Positions 4,609-62,404 of a stretch of 64,000 bases of DNA are shown here, one piece after another (within the stretch, counting starts at the first letter, position 1; the number at the start of each line of letters is the position of its first letter). The notes under the pieces were generated by a model. It made no database searches and was not told where the DNA came from. It was given only the letters and a program-made list of their open reading frames with translations. Source of the stretch: Henricia sp. BOLD:AAB3569 (lineage: Eukaryota > Echinodermata > Asteroidea > Spinulosida > Echinasteridae); the NCBI GenBank assembly GCA_037783545.1, contig JBBELK010000368.1, positions 434,001-498,000 on the forward strand, in the 5' to 3' direction. The translations under genes were made by a program, and so were the position numbers.

Positions 4609-5095
4609 ATCTCATTCACAGAATCAGAAATGTTTACAGATTTACACATAACTTACACAATATAAACATGACGGTAGAAAACTCCCCCTTAAATAGTTTT
4701 ATCTAAAGTGCTACAGTCTTTGAGAAATGAGCAAAACAATTAGTTTTCGTCTCGCGAGACCCAAAATCACCTCGCCCTGGATCACTTTGCCCTGGACCAC
4801 TTTGCCCTGGACCACTTCGCCCTGAACCACTGCACCCAAAGGCCATTTTCCCCCAAAACCACTTCGTCCAAACACTACCTCGCCCAAATGCCACTTCACC
4901 CCAAAACAACTTCGTGCACAGGCCGTGGTTCAGGGCGAAGTGGTTTTGGGGCGAAATGACTGTAAACCATTTTTTTTTTTTTCTGTTTTCTCAAAAAAGT
5001 TACACGAAGTACGAAGCTAATTTTTGCTTGGGTTGGTTTTAATCATGCATACCTTCAATCACACAGGGGGATGAAACTATTTGTAACAGTTTACT
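4609..5095. mobile_element. R1 element, copy A (left end degraded)
   Basis: The body is shared with the other R1 copies: ATCAGAAATGTTTACAGATT..., then a CTTTGAGAAATGAG block, then short GGGCGAAGTGG/CCACTTCGCCC units on both arms, then CACAGGGGGATGAAACTATT. The left TTAAAGGCAGTATACATG end is not recognisable. It starts within about 20 bp of the exon D donor. Confidence 0.8.
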
Positions 5096-5510
5096 AATAG
5101 TTTAGAGCGTGATCCAATTCAAGAGACAAATGCCTTTCCTTTAACAACAAATGAAAACTAAAGTGAACCTGTATGTTTACCTTCTACTGATGTTAATACA
5201 CACCCAGTTTATCACATGTTGAAATTGACTTTACAGTTCTATGCAGAGGTTGTTTTTATGCGGGAGGGACGGACAATCAATAAAATTTACAAAAACTACA
5301 ATTTTTTACATAGTTTCAACTATTTCTTGAAAATGTGATGGCACAGTGTGCCCAGTCAAAATTATTCTGTTAATTTTTGTAATATGATTGTAAAATATGG
5401 ACATTTCTTTACAGATCGAGGCATTATTTTGATTAATTTTAAAAAAATGTTCATCCAGTGTTTACCAGTTTTGGATCACGCTCTGTATACTACATGTACC
5501 TTTAATGTAT

Positions 5511-8624: not shown

Positions 8625-9705
8625 AGAGTCGCGCGGCCAGAGTCAAGCAGGAAGACTCGCGTAGCAAAACTCGGGCAGTAAGACTCGCGTGGCACGAGTC
8701 ATGCATCACGAGTTGCAGAGCAAGACCAACGCAGCACGAGTCTCGCATCACGAGCCGCACGGCACGAGTCGCACAGAGTTGAATGGCAAACGTCGTGCGG
8801 CAAGATTCATGCATCAATAATTGCACATCAATCCTTGCGCATCAAGCATTGCGCATCAAGCACTGCGCATCCAGCGTTGCACATCCAGCATTGCGTGTCC
8901 AGCGTTGCGCGTCGAGCGTTGAGCGTCGCGCATCGCGCATCGAGCATCGCGCATCGAGCATCGCGCATAGCGCATAGCGCATAGCGCATCGAGCATCGCG
9001 CATAGCGCATAGCGCATTGCGCATCGAGCATTGCGCATCGAGCATTGCGCATCGAGCATTGCGCATCGAGCATTGCGCATCGAGCATTGCGCATCGAGCA
9101 TTGCGCATCGAGCATTGCGCATCGAGCATCGCGCATCGCGCATCGAGCATCGCGCATCGCGCATCGCGCATCGAGCATCGCGCATCGCGCATCGAGCATC
9201 GCGCATCGAGCATCGCGCATCGAGCATCGCGCATCGCGCATCGAGCATCGCGCATCGAGCATCGCGCATCGAGCATCGCGCATCGCGCATCGCGCATCGC
9301 GCATCGCGCATCGCGCATCGAGCATTGCGCATCGAGCATTGCGCATCGAGCATTGCGCATCGAGCATTGCGCATCGACCATTGCGCATCGACCATTGCGC
9401 ATCGACCATTGCGCATCGACCATTGCGCATCGACCATTGCGCATCGACCATTGCGCATCGACCATTGCGCATCGACCATTGCGCATCGACCATTGCGCAT
9501 CGACCATTGCGCATCGACCATTGCGCATCGACCATTGCGCATCGACCATTGCGCATCGACCATTGCGCATCGACCATTGCGCATCGACCATTGCGCATCG
9601 ACCATTGCGCATCGACCATTGCGCATCGACCATTGCGCATCGACCATTGCGCATCGACCATTGCGCATCGACCATTGTGCATCAACCATCGCGCATGAAG
9701 TATAA
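8625..9705. repeat. 7/14-bp satellite array, homogeneous at its 3' end
   Basis: From about 8625 to 8900 the units are degenerate (AGTCGCG.., GCACGAG..). From about 8900 to 9373 they are GCGCATCGAGCATT/C and GCGCATC 7-mers. From about 9374 to 9690 roughly 22 near-identical 14-mers GCGCATCGACCATT follow. No stop codon occurs in any of the six frames over most of 9017-9700. No gene context, splice site or start makes any of these frames a credible protein. Confidence 0.95.
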
Positions 9706-19664: not shown

Positions 19665-20730
19665 TTAAAGGTAGTATACATGATTGGTAAACCGTTACAA
19701 ATGGTTTTATCCCCCTGTGTGATTGAAGATATGCATGATTAAAACCAACCTGAGCAAAAATCAGCTACGTACTTCGTCTAACTTTTGAGAAAACAGTCAA
19801 AAAATGGTTTACAGTCACTTCGCCCTGAACCACTTCGCCCTGAACCACTTCGCCCTGAACCACTTCGCCCTGAACCACTTCGCCCTGAACCACTTCACCC
19901 TGAACCACTTCGCCCTGAACCACTTCGCCCTGAACCACTTCGCCCTGAACCACTTCGCCCTGAACCCTTTGCCCTGAACTCTTTGCCCTGAACCCTTTGC
20001 CCTGAACCCTTTGCCCTGAACCCTTTGCCCTGAACCCTTTGCCCTGAACCCTTTGCCCTGAACCCTTTGCCCTGAACCCTTTGCCCTGAACCCTTTGCCC
20101 TGAACCCTGAACCCTTCGCCCTGAACCCTTCGCCCTGAACCCTTCGCCCTGAACCCTTCGCCCTGAACCCTTCGCCCTGAACCCTTCGCCCTGAACCCTT
20201 CGCCCTGAACCCTTCGCCCTGAACCCTTCGCCCTGAACCACTTCGCCCTGAACCACTTCGCCCTGAACCACTTCGCCCTGAACCACTTTGCCCTGAACCA
20301 CTTTGCCCTGAACCACTTTGCCCTGAACCACTTTGCCCTGAACCACTTTGCCCTGAACCACTTCGCCCTGAACCACTTCGCCCTGAACCACTTCGCCCTG
20401 AACCACTTCGCCCTGAACCACGGCCTGTGCACAAAGTTGTTTTGGGGCGAAGTGGCATTTGGGCGAAGATGTTTTGAGGCAAAATTGCCTTTGGGTGCAG
20501 TGCTTCAGGGCAAAGTGATCCAGGGCGAGGTGGTTTTGGTGCGAAATGAATTTACGTCTCGCGATACGAAAAATCATTGTTTTGCTTATTTCTCAAAGAC
20601 TATAGCACTTCAGACAAAACCATTTTAGGGTAAGTTTTCTACCATCATCGTGTTTATATTGTGTAAGTTATGTGTAAATCTGTGAACATTTCTGATTCCT
20701 CGAGATACCAATCATGTATTCTACCTTTAA
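19665..20730. mobile_element. R1 element, copy B, with expanded minisatellite
   Basis: The left end TTAAAGGTAGTATACATGAT and right end ATCATGTATTCTACCTTTAA are inverted repeats. The body outside the array matches the ~500-bp R1 copies, but the left minisatellite arm is expanded to about 620 bp (19815-20435). Total length is 1066 bp, about twice the family norm. Confidence 0.92.
19815..20435. repeat. Minisatellite of 14/15-bp units in four blocks
   Basis: Block 1 has about 10 units of the 15-mer CTTCGCCCTGAACCA. Block 2 has about 10 units of the 14-mer CTTTGCCCTGAACC. Block 3 has about 9 units of the 14-mer CTTCGCCCTGAACC. Block 4 has about 13 units of the 15-mer, with a run of CTTTG variants in its middle. 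Open frames across it are repeats of RPEPL, QGEVV and similar, and are not credible proteins. Confidence 0.95.
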
Positions 20731-20835
20731 GGGAGCGTGTCTCAGGTCACATTTTTAAACCCCCATTTTTCCCATGCGTATTGAGATTTGTCATATTTTT
20801 TCATTATCATTCTGAAATTTCTTATCTTGAAGTGT
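20727..20835. mobile_element. R2 fragment abutting R1 copy B
   Basis: TTTAAGGGAGCGTGTCTCAG...CACATTTTTAAACCCC...TTCCCATGCG follows the left third of R2. The rest is missing. It shares the CTTTAA junction with the R1 right end. Confidence 0.7.
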
Positions 20836-21404
20836 TCTTAAAAACATTACATGTACATACCCCAAGAAAATTTAATAATATTTGACTGTTGCGATATGTC
20901 GATCATTTCCAAAAGTTTTTTCGTGTCAACAAAAACTGTTATTCCTCCCCAATCAAAACTTCAGTCATTGTTTTTTTTTAATATAAAATAAATCACATTA
21001 CATTACTTGGTACTTCTTGTCAAAACCGTTGCATGCCATAAGTCGGCCACGCTTGGCATACGGAAGTAAGTTTATTTGTGCTTCACAATCAACTGGGCAA
21101 TTTATTTTTACCATCTATGTAATTTGTGCTTTAACTTTGCGACGTGTTTACCCATAAATTAAAATATATGTCAGGATGACAAATATTTGGTATCTGCTGT
21201 CTGGGTAAAAAGGAGGTAACTTTAATTACTCAAATTGTTCCGTGTTTGGCATTCGCAGGATATGAAAATGCTTGTCAAAACTAGTCAGAACACATTGATT
21301 GACATTTAACATGTATTACACAGACTTGCTGTCTTTACCAGTTTTACATTTGTAAAACATTTTACAAAAAAGACCAAGCTATCACACAGCTGAGCTATGT
21401 GGTA
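20836..21404. other. Intron 6, unassigned
   Basis: AT-rich, with no repeat partner in the window and no exon signature seen. Confidence 0.5.
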
Positions 21405-22490
21405 ACTCCCTCAGGTTTCCCCCAAGACCTCTGACACACAGCAGATGCTCTACCAGCTGAGCTATGAGGCACAGTGGTATACTCCCTCAGGTTTCCCCCC
21501 AAGACCTCTGACACACAGCAGATGCTCTTCCAGCTGAGCTATGAGGCACAGTGGTATACTCCCTCAGGTTTTCCCCAAGACCTCTGACACACCGGGCAGA
21601 TGCTCTACCAGCTGAGCTATGAGGCACAGTGGTATACTCCCTTAGGTTTCCCCCCAATACTTCTGACACACCGGGCAGATGCTCTACCAGCTGAGCTATG
21701 AGGCACAGTGATATATTCCCTCGGGTTTTCCTTAAGACCTTCAACACACCAGGCAGATGCTCTACCAGTTAAGCTATGAGGCACAGTGGTATACTCCCTT
21801 AGGTTTCCCCCCCAAGACCTCTGACGCACCAGGCAGATGCTCTACCCCCTGAGCTATGAGGCACAGTGGTATACTCCCTGAGGTTTTCCCCAATACTTCT
21901 GACACACTGGGCAGATGCTCTACCAGCTGAGCTATGAGGCACAGTGGTATACTCCCTTAGGTTTCCCCCCCAATACCTCTGACGCACCAGGCAGATGCTC
22001 TACCCCCTGAGCTATGAGGCACAGTGGTATACTCCCTGAGGTTTTCCCCAATACTTCTGACACACTGGGCAGATGCTCTACCAGCTGAGCTATGAGGCAC
22101 AGTGGTATACTCCCTTAGGTTTCCCCCCCAATACCTCTGACGCACCAGGCAGATGCTCTACCCCCTGAGCTATGAGGCACAGTGGTATGCCCCTCAGGTT
22201 TCCCCCAAGACCTCTGACACACAGCAGATGCTCTACCAGCTGAGCTATGAGGCACAGTGGTATGCCCCTCAGGTTTCCCCCAAGACCTCTGACACACAGC
22301 AGATGCTCTACCAGCTGAGCTATGAGGCACAGTGGTATACTCCCTCAAGTTTTCCCCAATACCTCTGACACACCAGGCAGATGCTCTACCATTTAAGCTA
22401 TGAGGCACAGTGGTATACTCCCTCAGGTTTCCCCCCAAGACCTCTGACATCCCCAGGCAGATGCTCTACCAGCTGAGCTACCGTATTAGG
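21405..22490 (-). repeat. Tandem array of tRNA-like units, about 13-14 copies
   Basis: The unit is about 79 bp. On the minus strand each begins near GCCTCATAGCTCAGCTGGTAG, a good Pol III box A and D-arm. AGCATCTGCC...GTGTCAGAGG follows, able to form an anticodon-like stem (TCTG/CAGA). Where the T-arm and box B (GGTTCGANTCC) should be, the unit has GGTCTTGGGGGAAACCT instead. These are therefore tRNA-like 5' halves in tandem, not functional tRNAs. Subunits differ at a few positions (e.g. AGCTGG versus AGGGGG). Confidence 0.9.
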
Positions 22491-23539: not shown

Positions 23540-23611
23540 TGGCTCCACCAGGATTCGAACCGCGGACCTTCTGCTTAACCTGCAGATGCCCTACAATTGA
23601 GCTGTGAAGCC
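23540..23611 (-). repeat. tRNA-like pseudogene or SINE head (Asn-like GTT)
   Basis: Read on the minus strand it has a 7-bp acceptor stem GGCTTCA/TGGAGCC with discriminator A, D-arm GCTC/GGGC, and perfect anticodon stem TCTGC/GCAGA with loop AGGTTAA (GTT). Box B GGTTCGAATCC is intact. Position 33 is G instead of T and the T-stem has two mismatches, so it is probably not a working tRNA. No poly-T terminator follows directly. Confidence 0.75.
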
Positions 23612-24766: not shown

Positions 24767-25272
24767 TTAAAGGCAGTATACATCATTGGTAATCTCGAAA
24801 ATCAGAAATGTTCACAGATTTACGCCTAACTTACACAATATAAACATGATGACCGTAGAAAACTTCCCATGAAACAGTTTTGTCTGAAGTTCTATAGTCT
24901 TTGAGAAATAAGCAAAACAATTAGTTTTCGTCTCACGAAAATTCAATTCGCCCCAAGTGCCATTTCGCCCCAAACCACTTCGCCCGAGTGCCATTTCGCC
25001 ACAAATCACTTCGTCCAAACACTACATCGCCAAAATGCTACTTCGCCCCAAAACCACTTTGTGCACAGGCCGTGGTTCAGGGCGAAATGGTTAAGGGCGA
25101 AGTGGTTTTAGGGCGAAATAACTGCAAACCCTTTTTTGACTGTTTTCTCAAAAGTTAGACGAAGTACGGAGCTGGTTTTTGCTCAGGTTGGTTTAAATCA
25201 TACATATCTTCAATCACACAGGGGGATAAAACTATTTGTAACGGTTTACCAATCATGTATACTATCTTTAAA
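24767..25272. mobile_element. R1 element, copy C
   Basis: A complete copy of about 506 bp, running from TTAAAGGCAGTATACATCAT to ATCATGTATACTATCTTTAA. The arms carry 4-6 units related to CCACTTCGCCC and GGGCGAAGTGG around a CACAGGCCGTGG centre. Confidence 0.92.
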
Positions 25273-26050: not shown

Positions 26051-26254
26051 AATAATAATAATCAAGCAGAAGAAAACGCAAAAGCAATTGCTTGAACACA
26101 TATTCATAACCCTTTGCTTTGGCCGACGGTATTTTCTTAAGCTTTCTTAGCAATTGCTTGGGGTTGTGAACAATATCGCTATTCATCAAGGGGCACGCGT
26201 ATTATGTATCGGCTTTGTATAGACGCATAGGTTTGCTTTAGGTTTTTAGTCAAA

Positions 26255-26400
26255 ATATTATATTTTGTGTATTACAATTGACTGGTGTTCTGCTATTCTT
26301 GCTAAAAACACAAGTAGACATACAATTTTTTCTATTAACCCATTTTTATAAAGCAAACAAATTTTGGATTAAGCAAATGTTTCTGCTGAAATTAAATTTA
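26255..26400. repeat. R18 fragments (rearranged)
   Basis: TACAATTGACTGGTGTTCTG, ACATACAATTTTTTCT and TTATAAAGCAAACAAATTTT match the interior of 33411-33660, but one part is inverted relative to the other. Confidence 0.6.
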
Positions 26401-31600: not shown

Positions 31601-33410
31601 CGTCATCTTTCTCCCATAATAACTTCAGTATGCAGTAAGGTCAAAGAATAAATTTATCATCAAGGAAAAGCCTGTTAATAACTCTTTATTCTTATGTCTA
31701 AAAAGACAAATTATACCTGGGTGTTATCCCTCATTTTTGTGTTTAGGTAAAAAGTTCTTTCAAGTCCTCTTAAAAAATTGTCAAGAACTATATTCCTGTC
31801 ATTTCCGCCCGGCCCAAATATCATTTATTCATGCACACCCTGAAATACCATGCCCCCATCACATTTTTCGAAGACGCTCTAAAAAAATATCCCCCTGACA
31901 TGTTTAATATTTCACGTTCAATAATTTATTATGACCGAGAATACGGAAACCACCATTTGTCACAGTTAAATGCCAACAACTGGATATTTCTAGAGAAGAA
32001 AATAAGTAAACGTTGGAACATGAATGATGTTTCTTGCGGGGGGTGCTGGAGGGAGAGGTCTTAATTTATTCATAAAGGTGGGTCAAATCTGTAGCCTTGA
32101 CAGAACTGACAGATTGATTTTCATTCAGGAATTCGTGCTTCATCAATGGTCATTATTGCCACGTGGTTAGCATCAAAAGAATCGTAGCTCTCACGTTTCA
32201 CACGCCTTCCACTCAATACTTATCACAATTTAAAGATGCATTCTGGCCACGATTGGGTGATTCTGAGAGATTTTGGGTATTAAAAAGCAACCCCAGAAAT
32301 GAAAACTGGATGAAAAAATTGTCTTAACGTAGAATACAATGATTAACACAATACCTTAAAAATGTACTTTTTGTCTGTAAATGTTTTTTAGTAAGAGTTG
32401 GGAAGTTGATCAGAAATGGTTTTTTTAAAAATGACTCATCAAGCATCGATATTAAGTGCAGATTTGATGGAAAAACCCAAATTTAGGAGTGAGAAAAAAT
32501 GTTTGGGAGGAAACACTAAGAATTTTTGCATAGCCAGTCTCGTGTGTTTTAGGCATAACGTCTGAACCCATGATCTTCTCAATTCTTTCAAAGATATTTT
32601 TGAGGTTTCGATGATCAAATTTTCATGCTCCATACTCAGGGCTAGTCTAGGTTCAGTACCCTCTATCATGTGATAGAGCTCTTTTGTTTCGTAAACTGCC
32701 AAAATTTGTCCCATCCGAAACTTGTTTATGTTGTGCATGATACTTATTGGTTGAAGTAAAATGTCTTTTTTTTTTTATTAACAATTTTAATACCACAAAA
32801 TCCCACAACAACATTTTGATTTTGGTCGGGACCAAAACCCCACGACAGTCCTCTACAATGCTATTTTTTTGACTATCACTTGATTGTGCCCCATTTTCTG
32901 TCGTGGACCCGTCGTAACGCCGTCCTGCGACGTATGTGACAGAGGCTTTATACTGTCGATTTGTGATTCACACTTGTGCAACCTCGGCTTATCTGATCCT
33001 GATGATGACTTAAGACATATTCCTTCCTGGATGGTTTAATCTAAGATCAAGGATTATTCTTAAGAAGCTTCATTAATTCTTAAAGAGTTGTCATTTGCAA
33101 CAGTGCGACAGAATTGTTAAAGGTTGTAAAAAGGACTCGCCAACGTTTTTATAGCAATAGAGCTTCTGCACCCGCAACCATGACAGGGTTTTCTTATGTA
33201 AATGCTGTAACAATAGAACCACAAAGCACCTACTTATGCATGACGCACGGTGACAACGTGACTGCCCCCTGTCATGGCCGCCGTGCAAAGGCTCTATACC
33301 ATCGAATTATAAGTATTATAAAATGTCTTTTTTGACTAAGTGACAGTGTGCTATTATATTCAACAAAAAGTGGAATTTACCGCATTTGTCAAATTGTTAG
33401 TAATTATCAG
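31601..33410. other. Intron 6, mostly unique sequence
   Basis: No repeats with a partner in the window. Open frames at 31831-32064 (+) and 32439-32738 (-) have ordinary composition but no recognisable domain. Neither has matching splice phases or a gene context. Confidence 0.45.
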
Positions 33411-33660
33411 GGGCCAATTTCATAAAGCTGTTCAGCAGAAAAGTTTGCCTAATCCAAAATTTGTTTGCTTTATAAAAATGGGTTTATACTTATAGTCAAA
33501 ATTGTATGTCAACCTGTGTTCTTACCAAGAATAGCAGAACACCAGTCAATTGTAATACACATCATATAGGATTTTAACTGAAACACCATTTTTATAAAGC
33601 AAACAAATTTTGGATTTAATATCCAAATGTTTCTGCTACACAGCTTTATGAAATTGGCCC
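33411..33660. mobile_element. R18 MITE with GGGCCAATTTCATAAAGCTG ends
   Basis: The left end GGGCCAATTTCATAAAGCTG and right end CAGCTTTATGAAATTGGCCC are inverted repeats, 250 bp. Termini of this kind are widespread in marine invertebrate genomes, as I recall. Confidence 0.9.
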
Positions 33661-34544: not shown

Positions 34545-35285
34545 AATGTCTCTGACACACTGAGCAGATGCTTTACCAGCTGAGCTTTGAGGCACAGTGG
34601 TACATGGTATGCTCCTTTAGGTTTCCCCCAAGACCTCTGACAAACTGGGCAGATGCTCTACCAGCTGAGCTATGAGGCACAGTGGTATACTCCCTCAGGT
34701 TTCCCCCAAGACCTCTGACAAACTGGGCAGATGCTCTACCAGCTGAGCTATGAGGCACAGTGGTATACTCCCTCAGGTTTCCCCCAAGACCTCTGACAAA
34801 CTGGGAAGATGCTCTACCAGCTGAGCTATGAGGCACAGTGGTATACTCCGTCAGGTTTCCCCCAAGACCTCTGACAAACTGGGCAGATGCTCTACCAGAT
34901 GAGCTATGAGGCACAGTGGTATATCACTGGTGTTTTCCCCCAAAGACCTCTGACACCCTAGGCAGATGCTCTACCACCTGAGTTGTGAGGCACAGTGGTA
35001 TACTCTCTCATGTCCCCCCCCCCCCCCCCCACCCCTCCCCCCTTCCCGCCCCCCAAGACCTCTGACACACCAGGCAGATGCTCTACCAGCTGAGCTATAA
35101 GGCACAGTTGTATACTCCCTCAGGTTTTCCCCCAAGAACTCTGACACACCGGGCAGATGCTCTACCATCTGAGCTATAAGGAACAGTGGTATATGCCCTC
35201 AGGTTCCCCCACCCCCAACCCCCAAGACCTCTGACACACTGGGCATATGCTCTACCAGCTGAGCTATGAGGCACAGTGGTATACC
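34545..35285 (-). repeat. Second tandem array of tRNA-like units, about 9-10 copies
   Basis: It has the same 79-bp unit as 21405-22490, on the same strand. Some units carry CAAACTGGGCAG (+ strand), and two have C-tract or other insertions (about 35017, 35205). The array ends in a long C run at 35283. Confidence 0.9.
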
Positions 35286-35319
35286 CCCCCCCCCCCCCCC
35301 CCCCCCCCTCCCCCCCTAA

Positions 35320-39955: not shown

Positions 39956-40488
39956 TTTAAAGATAGTATACATGATTGGTAAACTGTTACAAATAATGTT
40001 ATCGCCCTGTGTGATTGAAGATATGCATGTTAAAAACCAACCTGAGCAAAAACCAGCTATGTACTTCATGTAACTTTTGAGAAAACAGTCAAAAATGGGT
40101 TTGCAGTCATTTTGCCCCAAAACCACTTCGCCCTGAACCACTTCGCCCTGAACCACGGCCTGTGCACGAAGTTGTTTTGGGGTGAAGTGGCTCTTGGGCG
40201 AGGTAGTGTTTGGACGAAGTGGTTTGGGGCGAAATGGCACTCGGGTGAAGTGGTTCAGGACGAAGTGGATATGGTCCAGGGCGAAATGGTTTTGGGGCGA
40301 ATTTATTTTACGTCTCGCGAGACGAAAAATAATTGTTTTGCTCATTTCTCAAAGACTGTAGCACTTCAGACAAAACCATTTTTTAGGGGAAGTTTTCTGC
40401 TGTTATCATGTTTATATTGTGTATGTTAGGCTTAATATGTGAACATTTCTGATTCTTCGAGATACCAATCATGTGTACTGCCTTTAAA
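39956..40488. mobile_element. R1 element, copy D
   Basis: It runs from TTTAAAGATAGTATACATGA to ATCATGTGTACTGCCTTTAA, about 533 bp, with GGCCTGTGCACGAAGTTG at the centre. Confidence 0.9.
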
Positions 40489-42865: not shown

Positions 42866-43620
42866 TGTTTGGGTGTGGCACCTCGGAAAAAAACATTTTA
42901 ATTGATGTTTTTCTAGAAACAAATGAGACATCACTGAAAAAATAAACCAACGTTTAGTTATCGAACAATTACTGGTACTGTCAATTTTTTTAAAATATTG
43001 GCGGTCCGCCAATAATTATACTCGCGGCAAGGCAAAAAAAACGGCCGTATAAAAACGGCGTTTTCCACTGGGTTGCTGATGTTTAAAGGCAGTATACATG
43101 ATTGGTATCTCGAAAATCAAAATATTTTCGCAGATTTACGCCTAACTTACACAAATATAAACATGATGACCGTAGAAAACTTCCCCTGAAATAGTTTTAA
43201 GTGCTATAGTCTTTGAGAAATGAGTAAAACAATTAGTTTTCTTCTCATGAGACGAAAATTCAATTCGCCCCAAAACCATTTCCCCCAAGTGCCATTTCGC
43301 CCCAAATCACTTCGTCCAAACACTACATCACCCAAATGCTACTTCGCCCAAAACCACGCTGTGGTTCAGGGCGAAGTGGTTTTAGGGTGAAATAACTGCA
43401 AACCCTTTTTTTACTGTTTTCTCAAAAGTTAAACGAAGTACGGAGCTGGTTTTTGCTCAGGTTGGTTTTAATCATGCATATCTTCAATCACACAGGGGGT
43501 GAAAACTATTTGTAACAGTTTACCAATCATGTATACTATCTTTAAAATACAAAGTATGATGATTTTTCATTAAAATAAAATAATAAAAAAATCAAATGTG
43601 CTGAGAACCAAGGACAATAT
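42866..43620 (-). mobile_element. R6 element before exon G, split by R1 copy E
   Basis: It runs from TTTGGGTGTGGCACCTCGG, through the palindrome TTGGCGGTCCGCCAA, to AAAACGGCGTTTTCCACTGG. After R1 it resumes with ATACAAAGTATGATGATTTT and ends ...CTGAGAACCAAGGACAATAT, about 50 bp before exon G. Confidence 0.85.
43082..43546. mobile_element. R1 element, copy E
   Basis: It runs from TTTAAAGGCAGTATACATGA to ATCATGTATACTATCTTTAA, 465 bp, nested in R6. Confidence 0.92.
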
Positions 43621-47430: not shown

Positions 47431-47556
47431 TTAAAGGCACAGGCTCGTCAGCAATGCGAGCCTGCCAAATTATTGCTCGAAACACGCAGCTTCATGCCTT
47501 TGCTATGGAGCTGCGTATTGCGTGGCACACATTTGGCGGGCGCGCATTGCCTTTAA
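47431..47556. mobile_element. R14 palindromic MITE, copy 1
   Basis: TTAAAGGCACAGGCTCGTCA...GCGAGCCTGCCAAAT at the left, mirrored by ATTTGGCGGGCGCGCATTGC at the right. It abuts R1 copy F. Confidence 0.8.
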
Positions 47557-47966
47557 AGGCAGTATACATGATTGGTATCTCGAAAATCAGAAATGTTCAC
47601 AGATTTACGCCTAACTTACACAATATAAACATGATGACCGTAGAAAACTTCCCCTGAAATGGTTTTGTCTAAAGTGCTATAGTCTTTGAAAAATTCCCCC
47701 CAAAACCATTTTGCCCAAGTGCCATTTCGCCCCCAAACCACTTCGCCCGAGTGCCATTTCGCCCCAAATCACTTCGTCCAAACACTACATTGCCCAAATG
47801 CTACTTTGCCCCAAAACCACTTCGTGCACAGGCCGTGGTTCAGGGCGAAATGGTTCAGGGCGAAGTGGTTTTGGTGCGAAATGACTGCAAACCCTCTTTT
47901 GACTGTTTTCTTAAAAGTTAGACGAAGTAAGGAGCTGATTTTTGCTGAGGTTGGTTTTAATCATGC
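47552..47966. mobile_element. R1 element, copy F (right end lost)
   Basis: It runs from CTTTAAAGGCAGTATACATG to GGTTGGTTTTAATCATGC, where it meets R5 copy 6. Confidence 0.88.
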
Positions 47967-49659: not shown

Positions 49660-49697
49660 CAATGGCAACTGACGTCGCACTTTAGTAGTCTATTACT

Positions 49698-49826
49698 GCA
49701 TATTCATGACATATGATGCATATTCATGACATATTATGCATATTCATGACATATTATGCATATTCATGACATATTATGCATATTCATGACATATTATGCA
49801 TATTCATGACATATTATGCATATTCT
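49698..49826. repeat. 20-bp tandem array, about 6.5 units
   Basis: The unit GCATATTCATGACATATTAT is nearly identical throughout; the first unit has ATATGAT. Each unit holds TCATGA and ATATTCAT palindromic cores. Confidence 0.95.
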
Positions 49827-56122: not shown

Positions 56123-57016
56123 TTTAGCACGTTTTTAAAAGTACATCTACATTTATAGGATATATTTGCGTTTATATCTCAAACGCTGTTTTTACATTGA
56201 AACAAAATTGCAACTTTTAAGCCAATTTAACTTTTCAATCCATAACCTGCATTGCAAGTGTAAAATGATAAATGAACGAGTCTGTTACTAGACTAGTCAG
56301 TGCTTGGTACCCAGACGTACATATGTAAAAAGAAGTGTTGTTAGCATGCATTCGCGTAGACTGGGTCCCGTCCCAATATATACCTATACAATCGACAAGA
56401 CGTCTGGATACTACGTAGGGAACGGGATCCAGTCTAGCATTCGCGATGGGCCTTAAGTTGGCCAAGTTAATTGCCTATACTGCTTACAATTACGTACGAG
56501 ACCATGGTAGCCGGCTATGTCATTGGTCAAAGAACTATTCATTATTTTCGGACGGTATAGCTATTAGTTCAGACGCAACCTTACAAAAATAGTTCGGAAA
56601 TGCAAACTATGCGGCCCAATGTTGCCTATCCCCTCATACTGTCACGTTAAATTAGCGGCATATCAAAGTTAACGTCCCAAATTTAGCCTCCGATATTGAG
56701 GATAGCGAAAGACTTATCGCTCAGTAGTCCTACTACGATGTAAAGTATTTGGTTTGCCTTGCCGCGCTCGGAGATCAATGTTTTAATGGATTCCTTTACG
56801 GGAAAACTCACCGAGGCGTTAGCTTTAAGCAACCGAATCTAAACGCTAAATGCCCCGGGATGTTTTATGAAGGACACGCGACCTCAGTTACGAACATTCA
56901 CATGGCCTTTTTGCAATTTCATTGCAAATTTAAGGTCAAGTGTCACGAGAGTACAGTCGTCACAAATTCAACTAATGGCTTGCACTGGTGTTACTGACCA
57001 AAACCGCTCATTGGTG

Positions 57017-57515
57017 AAAGATAGTATACATGATTGGTAAACCGTTACAACTAGTTTCATCTCGCTGTGTGATTGAAGATATGCATGATTAAAACCAACC
57101 TGAGCAAAAACCAGCTTCGTACTTTTGAGAAAACAGTCAAAAACTGGTTTACAGTCAATTCGCCCCAAAACCACTTCGCCCTGAACCACTTCGCCCTGAA
57201 CCACGGCCCGTGCACGAAGTTGTTTTGGGGCGAAGTGACATTTGGGCGAGGTAGTGTTTGGACGAAGTGGCCTTTGGGTGAAGTGCTTCAGTGCGAAGTG
57301 GTCCAGGGCGAGGTGGTTTTGGAACTAAACGAATTTACGTCTCGCGAGACGAAAATTATTGTTTTGCTCATTTCTCAAAAACTATAGCACTTCAGACAAA
57401 ACCATTTCAGGGGAAGTTTTCTAATGTCATCATGTTGATATTGTGTAAGTTATAGGCGTAAATCTGTGAACATTTCTAATTTTCGAGATTACCAATGATG
57501 TGTTCTAACTTTAAA
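57017..57515. mobile_element. R1 element, copy G
   Basis: It runs from GAAAGATAGTATACATGATT to ACCAATGATGTGTTCTAACT, about 499 bp, with both minisatellite arms short. Confidence 0.9.
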
Positions 57516-61805: not shown

Positions 61806-61837
61806 ACCTATGAACGTAATTGTACAAATTAGCCTAT

Positions 61838-62090
61838 TACGGACGCGGGGCATATAAATCAACCTATTGCGGACACGATATAGACAAATCGGTCAATTGC
61901 GGACGCGGGACACACAAACCAGCCCATTGCGGACGCGGGACACACAAACCAGCCCATTGCGGACGCGGGACACACAAACCAGCCCATTGCGGACGCCGAA
62001 CAGACAAACCACCCCATTGCGGACGCACGCGGGGCTCGCAAACCAGTCAATTGCGGACCCGCTACACACAAACCACCCCATGGCGGACCC
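61838..62090. repeat. 30-bp tandem array, about 8 units
   Basis: The unit CATTGCGGACGCGGGACACACAAACCAGCC has three identical units in the middle and diverged ones at the edges. Because 30 is a multiple of three, one frame reads as decapeptide repeats (CGRGTHKPAH, 61820-62128), and another reads as TRDTQTSPLR. No splice or start context supports coding. Confidence 0.93.
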
Positions 62091-62404
62091 GCGACAGATT
62101 ACGTTTGACATCTGCTACGTGCCACTGAAAGAAATCCTCGCATTATTGATTTCAATCTTTTTTCTCACTAAGATGCATGCACGAGCTCGTGCTTTCATGA
62201 GGTAGTTTGCATTTTTATCACTAGAGTGTCTCAAGAAGCGAAGAGAAGTCGAGTGAAAATAACCGCGAAGAAATCGATTGAAATAAGTATCACGTTTTGT
62301 ACTACATTATGTATGAGTGGACTTGGCAATGGCTGTATAGGCTGTATACACAAGAGGCAATCATTTATACGTATGTCTATCAAATTCAGTTCGTTCACAT
62401 TCAT

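Follow-up and report, generated by a model that had tools for sequence, protein, structure and literature searches.

A MITE-like element of Henricia that inserts at TTAA, and the probable growth in place of its short repeat units into a minisatellite

The window, by which we mean the whole stretch of 64,000 nucleotides of Henricia contig C368 that was analysed, contains at 19665..20730 (plus strand) copy B of a repeat family named R1, a whole element with TTAA at both ends and a long array of short tandem units in one of its two arms. Does R1 carry this repeat as a mobile seed, and did the array of copy B grow where it stands, or did the other copies shrink, or was an independent minisatellite captured by the element?

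The R1 element and its insertion site

R1 terminates in inverted repeats of about 25 bp, and its consensus has TTAAAGRYAGTATACATGATTGGTA at either end, with a tendency towards GGCAG on one side and GATAG on the other. Allowing up to three mismatches, the end TTAAAGGYAGTATACATGAT has 10 matches in the window as against 0.01 expected by shuffling, and in the searched genome (740.7 Mb in 2,104 contigs) an exact 20-base end is found 2,880 times (1476 + 1404), its reversed control 0 times. Both arms are measurable in seven copies of the window, in agreement with the initial annotation, which had described a family of at least seven copies with common inverted ends. Our sample comprised 48 loci (L001-L048), a non-random set made up of the first-listed exact ends on contigs C1-C6, and a further 30 loci around arrays. 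The length of the element is 440-570 bp in 29 of the 46 entries with both ends.

R1 inserts at TTAA. This sequence stands at both outer edges in 39 of 43 distinct both-ended copies, a figure that leans towards TTAA because the pattern used to find the ends itself includes it. Direct repeats beyond TTAA are rare (4 bp in 0/43 copies, 8 bp in 1/43); the single 8-bp candidate, accgaact flanking TTAA at L034, was rejected as a target duplication, as it belongs to a locally repeated ACCGAAC stretch and such matches occur in only one copy of the 43. Joined flanks gave matches spanning the insertion point for ten queries, of which five were inspected (L012, L013, L014, L015 and the copy at 43083) and five were left out of the inspection (L039, L040, L059, L060 and L068). 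An empty site with a single TTAA is present at L016 relative to the insertions L013-L015, which are probably one insertion event in duplicated flanks, and another is present at 26250-26390 of the window relative to the insertion L012. As the empty sites at these two insertion sites carry a single TTAA, the target is probably duplicated upon insertion. A second relative of the L012 site, at 33406-33575, reads TTAG, and at the third site, that of the 43083 copy, TTAA is found in none of the four relatives shown, two of which read CTAA and two differ further.

R1 is short and abundant, with terminal inverted repeats and a target duplication judged from empty sites, all of which are properties of MITEs. 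Open frames run through the array of copy B, one of them 275 aa long, and occur in the copy at 39957 (141 aa) and in two long copies, L038 and L021 (81-120 aa). Six such frames were scanned, and these, from two copies in the window (B and 39957) and the two long copies, gave no Pfam family at E 0.01 and no transposase was seen in them. R1 is apparently a MITE-like, non-autonomous DNA transposon. Kolobok elements have TTAA as their target site. TTAA is likewise the target of piggyBac in the part of the published account used here (PMC5199201), and the target of R1 is therefore that of either superfamily; the element would have been moved by the transposase of a TTAA-type partner, piggyBac- or Kolobok-like. 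A single strand of the 39957 copy folds on itself strongly (z = -7.9, none of 100 shuffles being as good), which is expected because the arms are inverted.

Repeat units in ordinary and expanded copies

The left arm of copy B (19665..19814), which starts with the inverted end of about 25 bp, matches a consensus built from 33 other copies at 96% over 138 bp, and at 19815 it passes into the array. This array has six blocks with 41 full units in all, plus a stub of 7 bp, and the units of a block are nearly all identical. Ten 15-mers with TTCG, one of which has TTCA (as TTCACCC), form the first block (19815..19964), and ten 14-mers with TTTG, including one CTC variant, form the second (19965..20104). 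Behind the partial unit CCCTGAA (20105..20111) follow nine 14-mers with TTCG (20112..20237), three 15-mers with TTCG (20238..20282), five 15-mers with TTTG (20283..20357) and four 15-mers with TTCG (20358..20417). The central turn CCACGGCCTGTGCACAA (20418..20434) separates the array from the right arm (20435..20730), which holds G-type units and the right inverted end; all of these features read on the plus strand. The right flank, from 20731 (GGGAGCGTGTC...), resembles a repeat that starts at or near the shared TTAA and recurs near 1399, 4035, 27202 and 36901 of the window.

The span of copy B and the large size of its array are as initially annotated, and the estimate of about 42 units in four blocks becomes 41 units with a stub in six. 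The same annotation proposed that a 1-bp deletion and a C/T change arose within the array and were then amplified, and here the history is more complex. Both TTTG and TTCA differ from TTCG at its CpG, one affecting each strand, which would fit deamination. TTTG is found in one block of 14-mers and in one of 15-mers, and it therefore arose twice or was copied between units of the two lengths. An exact dimer of the 14-mer TTTG unit occurs at seven positions in the genome, all of them inside copy B, and this unit looks local to the copy.

Ordinary copies of R1 are quite different in their unit numbers from copy B. At up to three mismatches per 11-base unit, 34 of the 48 sampled loci yielded 35 measured cores (L021 gave two), and the other 14, some of which show both ends, gave no core at the match thresholds and were dropped; the counts shift a little with the mismatch rule, L104 for instance having 13 or 10 units. 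All but one of the 35 cores have 0-4 units in the C-type arm; the exception has 7, in a length of 2,073 bp that probably includes further inserts. In the G-type arm all 35 have 1-10 units. Every measured core thus contains units in one arm or in both, and their number varies between conserved ends, as in MITEs that contain tandem repeats. The range of 2-6 units per arm given earlier was accordingly too high for the C-type arm and too low for many G-type arms. In the window, the six other two-armed copies are at 4622..5098 (minus strand, ends approximate; 2 C-units and 10 G-units), 24767..25271 (minus; 3 and 8), 39957..40487 (plus; 3 and 9), 43083..43545 (minus; 1 and 6), 47553..47964 (minus, one end diverged or truncated; 3 and 8) and 57015..57515 (plus; 3 and 7). 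Since 34 of 35 cores have at most four C-units, copy B most likely grew rather than the others having shrunk, and the alternative of shrinkage elsewhere, which had been raised together with the first description, is not favoured.

Longer runs are found elsewhere in the genome. A search for three exact 15-mers in a row gave 86 positions, which we grouped by hand into 44 places, all of them then read; these represent at most 42 sites, as C368/C705 and C281/C783 are homologous pairs, and the exact pattern passes over arrays built of other units, that on C1072 being an example. R1 arm sequence adjoins 43 of the 44 places, the C-arm in 40 and the G-arm in three (L074, L104 and L114), once L055, L058 and L102 are reassigned to the C-arm from the scripted labels of 37/6/1 because their match to the left arm is long and has the C-arm orientation, the opposite match being only short. 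The match to the arm is weak in a few places, the weakest being L105 (35 and 26 bp). Array lengths are 41, 16, 13, 12, 12, 11, 11, 10, 10, 10 and 8 units, and then 7 to 3. As 11 of the 44 places hold at least eight units, copy B stands at the far end of a tail and is not the one expanded copy that it was taken to be; the 11 places correspond to nine R1 sites, since the arrays of 41 and 16 units both represent the copy B site, on different contigs, and L111, one of the two with 12, is outside R1.

The L111 array (C607:30650-31600) has 12 units of the same motif, several with AAAAA-like spacers, in flanks that contain no recognisable R1 arm, indicating that the tie of the unit to R1 is not absolute. 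It is perhaps part of a second element family that shares the repeat module. By eye, L111 lies near a different inverted repeat. The initial annotation had named arrays without R1 ends as evidence against a mobile element that carries repeat seeds; one place in 44 is of that kind, and the arrays beside R1 arms at the other 43 support such an element.

Versions of the copy B site on homologous contigs

The left flank of copy B matches two more places in the assembly, one on C1072 (615 bp, printed as 100%) and one on C705 (95%). Stretches of both contigs run collinear, in reversed order, with the window: the best matches of six stretches of C1072 and seven of C705 (BLAST identity 85-96%) keep their sequence along it. 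The collinearity is imperfect, in that indels displace matches by some 1 kb or more and some stretches match only in part. R1 is inserted at the same place in all three contigs, and its array differs among them: C368 has 41 units, C705 has 16, in which 15-mers are mixed with 17-mers, and C1072 has 15, namely one 15-mer and fourteen 17-mers. The 17-mer type stands in place of the 14-mers of copy B, and the central CCACGGCCTGTG is missing in both C1072 and C705. The units of 14, 15 and 17 bp are all within the size of about 10-60 bp that defines tandem minisatellite units.

These are three homologous contigs of one assembly. As three exceed what a diploid needs, duplication or pooled individuals are possible, and the contigs may represent a duplication, pooled individuals or extra haplotigs. 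Local identity among them ranges from about 92 to >99%, and for this region the assembly is very polymorphic, duplicated or multi-haplotype. A second homologous pair at an R1 array, L100 and L116 on C281 and C783, is 99.9% identical over 933 bp and has four units in both.

Neighbouring R1 copies were compared in the same contigs, and at 5/5 sites their C-units differ by at most one. The numbers in C368, C1072 and C705 are 2/1/2 and 3/3/3 at two of the sites, and those in C368 and C705 are 3/4, 1/2 and 3/3 at the others. The copy at 47.6k was not measurable in C705; for the copy at 40.0k we used the collinear C705 core (202 bp, 4 C-units) and left out another that is R1-like but not the collinear one (575 bp, 6 C-units and 12 G-units), and for that at 43.1k a core of 205 bp was used and one of 64 bp set aside. 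Between contigs the neighbouring cores vary in length, by as much as 78 bp, showing that deletions occur. As the neighbours differ by no more than one C-unit, strong variation in unit number is visible at the expanded site but at none of these five.

Divergence between C368 and C1072 changes at the array. To its left 1/284 sites differ (283/284 identical), in the R1 arm to its right 25/302 (277/302 identical), and farther right 9/620; elsewhere the two contigs differ at 26/787 and 48/811 sites. C1072 and C705 are not especially close in the right arm (280/299 identical). The right arm together with about the first 110 bp of flank (20435-20840 of the window) forms a patch in which the contigs diverge far more from one another than they do to its left or right. 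That C368 and C1072 cease to be nearly identical at the array fits a conversion or crossover at that point, but this is a single case, and the distance of C1072 from C705 in the right arm and the reach of the diverged patch into the flank weaken the reading. It is conceivable, if unlikely, that the R1 core is a portable recombination-prone site and that homologous exchange or conversion breaks at the expanded array. If true, the thousands of R1 seeds would spread potential exchange hot spots and hypervariable loci throughout the genome.

Growth of the array, its alternatives and related systems

Based on these data we propose, with a probability of roughly 0.85, that R1 is a MITE-like element inserting at TTAA that carries CCACTTCGCCC units, and that the run in its C-type arm grows in place, copy B having become a 41-unit minisatellite. 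R1 would arrive at a TTAA by means of the transposase of its partner, bringing short inverted runs of the unit in its two arms. After insertion, the near-identical units of 14-17 bp in the C-type arm would lengthen and re-sort in place, presumably by repeated local duplication through replication slippage or through unequal exchange within or between homologues. New variants, several of them at the CpG of the unit, would then be amplified as blocks, and the outcome at copy B would be the 41 units in homogeneous blocks. As the same insertion exists in 16- and 15-unit versions and the neighbours differ by at most one C-unit, copy B is best interpreted as a hypervariable minisatellite that originated within a MITE-like element, the contigs being possibly duplicates rather than alleles.

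The repeat could instead have been an independent minisatellite captured by R1, with arrays elsewhere as its source. L111, with its 12 units of the same motif between flanks unlike R1 arms, speaks for such a capture, yet the other 43 of the 44 places with three exact units, including the weakly matching L105 with its 35 and 26 bp, adjoin an R1 arm and each of the 35 measured cores has units in one arm or in both, making capture very unlikely. The constant presence of units in the cores would also suit a reading by analogy with what has been proposed for Galileo and Tetris, in which the arms would be sites bound by the transposase, a longer array would have raised transposition and expansion would have been selected for mobility instead of being neutral; in the part of the Tetris paper that we draw on, this is argued for foldback elements (PMC4079207). 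Against this, the 14-mer dimer of copy B is found nowhere else, hence there is no sign that the expanded form of copy B spread, and runs of at least three exact 15-mers are rare, at 44 places as compared to 2,880 exact ends. We consider selection for mobility to be quite unlikely.

The long array and its versions could, on the other hand, be products of assembly, by haplotype switching or by mis-assembly of the repeat. That three contigs cover one region, and that the near-identity of C368 and C1072 stops at the array (283/284 to the left, 277/302 in the right arm), would be in keeping with this. However, homogeneous blocks with unit types of their own, 14-mers in C368 and 17-mers in C1072 and C705, are unexpected from joining errors, and the array of C705 differs as well, although C705 is an ordinary diverged version on both sides. 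An artefact is therefore highly improbable.

Growth in place of a seed carried by R1 is of a kind known already from the bivalve tandem-repeat MITEs, Xmix/Xstir, miDNA4, Tetris and BrickBuilt, and the seeding of longer arrays by repeats inside a MITE or foldback element has been published. What seems less usual, in comparison with these few reports, is to find seed, intermediate and expanded loci together with three versions of one site in a single assembly. The assembly documents a series that begins with a seed of few units, includes R1 loci of 8-13 units and ends with the array of 41, and the three versions of the expanded site stand beside stable neighbouring copies. With mobile seed, intermediates, the 41-unit array and three versions of its site at hand, the step from seed to minisatellite becomes measurable, in a genome with thousands of near-identical R1 seeds of which few have grown. 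A literature search by topic, without an element name or sequence, did not find R1 named and is a weak guide to novelty.

The repeats of the bivalve elements are about 160-170 bp long. In the portions of the bivalve report used here (PMC5139131), DTC84 of Donax and CvA of oyster are, like R1, short non-autonomous inverted-repeat elements with internal tandem repeats, the internal arrays of the pearl-family or tandem-repeat MITEs reach up to six monomers, and DTC84 has a palindrome near the repeat junction; their repeats resemble satellite monomers, unlike the 14-17 bp unit of R1, which is inverted in two arms. Xmix/Xstir and miDNA4 of Xenopus, as presented in sections of PMC9659126, are cases of a tandem repeat internal to a MITE that multiplies where it stands and can turn into satellite DNA, but Xstir lies in the TIR and miDNA4 is a Tc1-mariner MITE, in contrast to the TTAA ends of R1. 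The same sections describe the lepidopteran mobile microsatellites, (GTCY)n MITEs that carry a repeat tract through the genome, with a 4-bp unit and in a different element (PMC9659126). Tetris, a foldback element of Drosophila virilis, has inverted arms and internal tandem repeats that seed longer arrays, according to the sections of its report used here (PMC4079207); it differs in its unit of about 220 bp and its long TIRs, and 39/69 of its contigs are repeat-only, whereas R1 arms are missing at 1/44 places, though fibre-FISH in the same sections shows no Tetris array without a flanking part. BrickBuilt of Porphyromonas gingivalis, in the excerpted description (PMC4596501), is a MITE that has leader and tail pieces and encloses a minisatellite of 23-bp units; it is bacterial, and its likeness to R1 is one of organisation.

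Other repeats are visible in the window. Arrays of a unit of about 78 bp at 21399-22480 and 34550-35306 resemble a reversed tRNA gene (GCTCTACCAGCTGAGCTATGAGGC); ARAGORN found no tRNA in the window, and Rfam gave one, at 23540-23611 on the minus strand. About 63 copies of a 14-mer occupy 8811-9696, with higher-order periods of 28 and 42 bp and long open frames on both strands, and shorter arrays lie at 49691-49825 (a 20-mer, 6.7 copies) and at 61824-62096 (a 30-mer, 9 copies).
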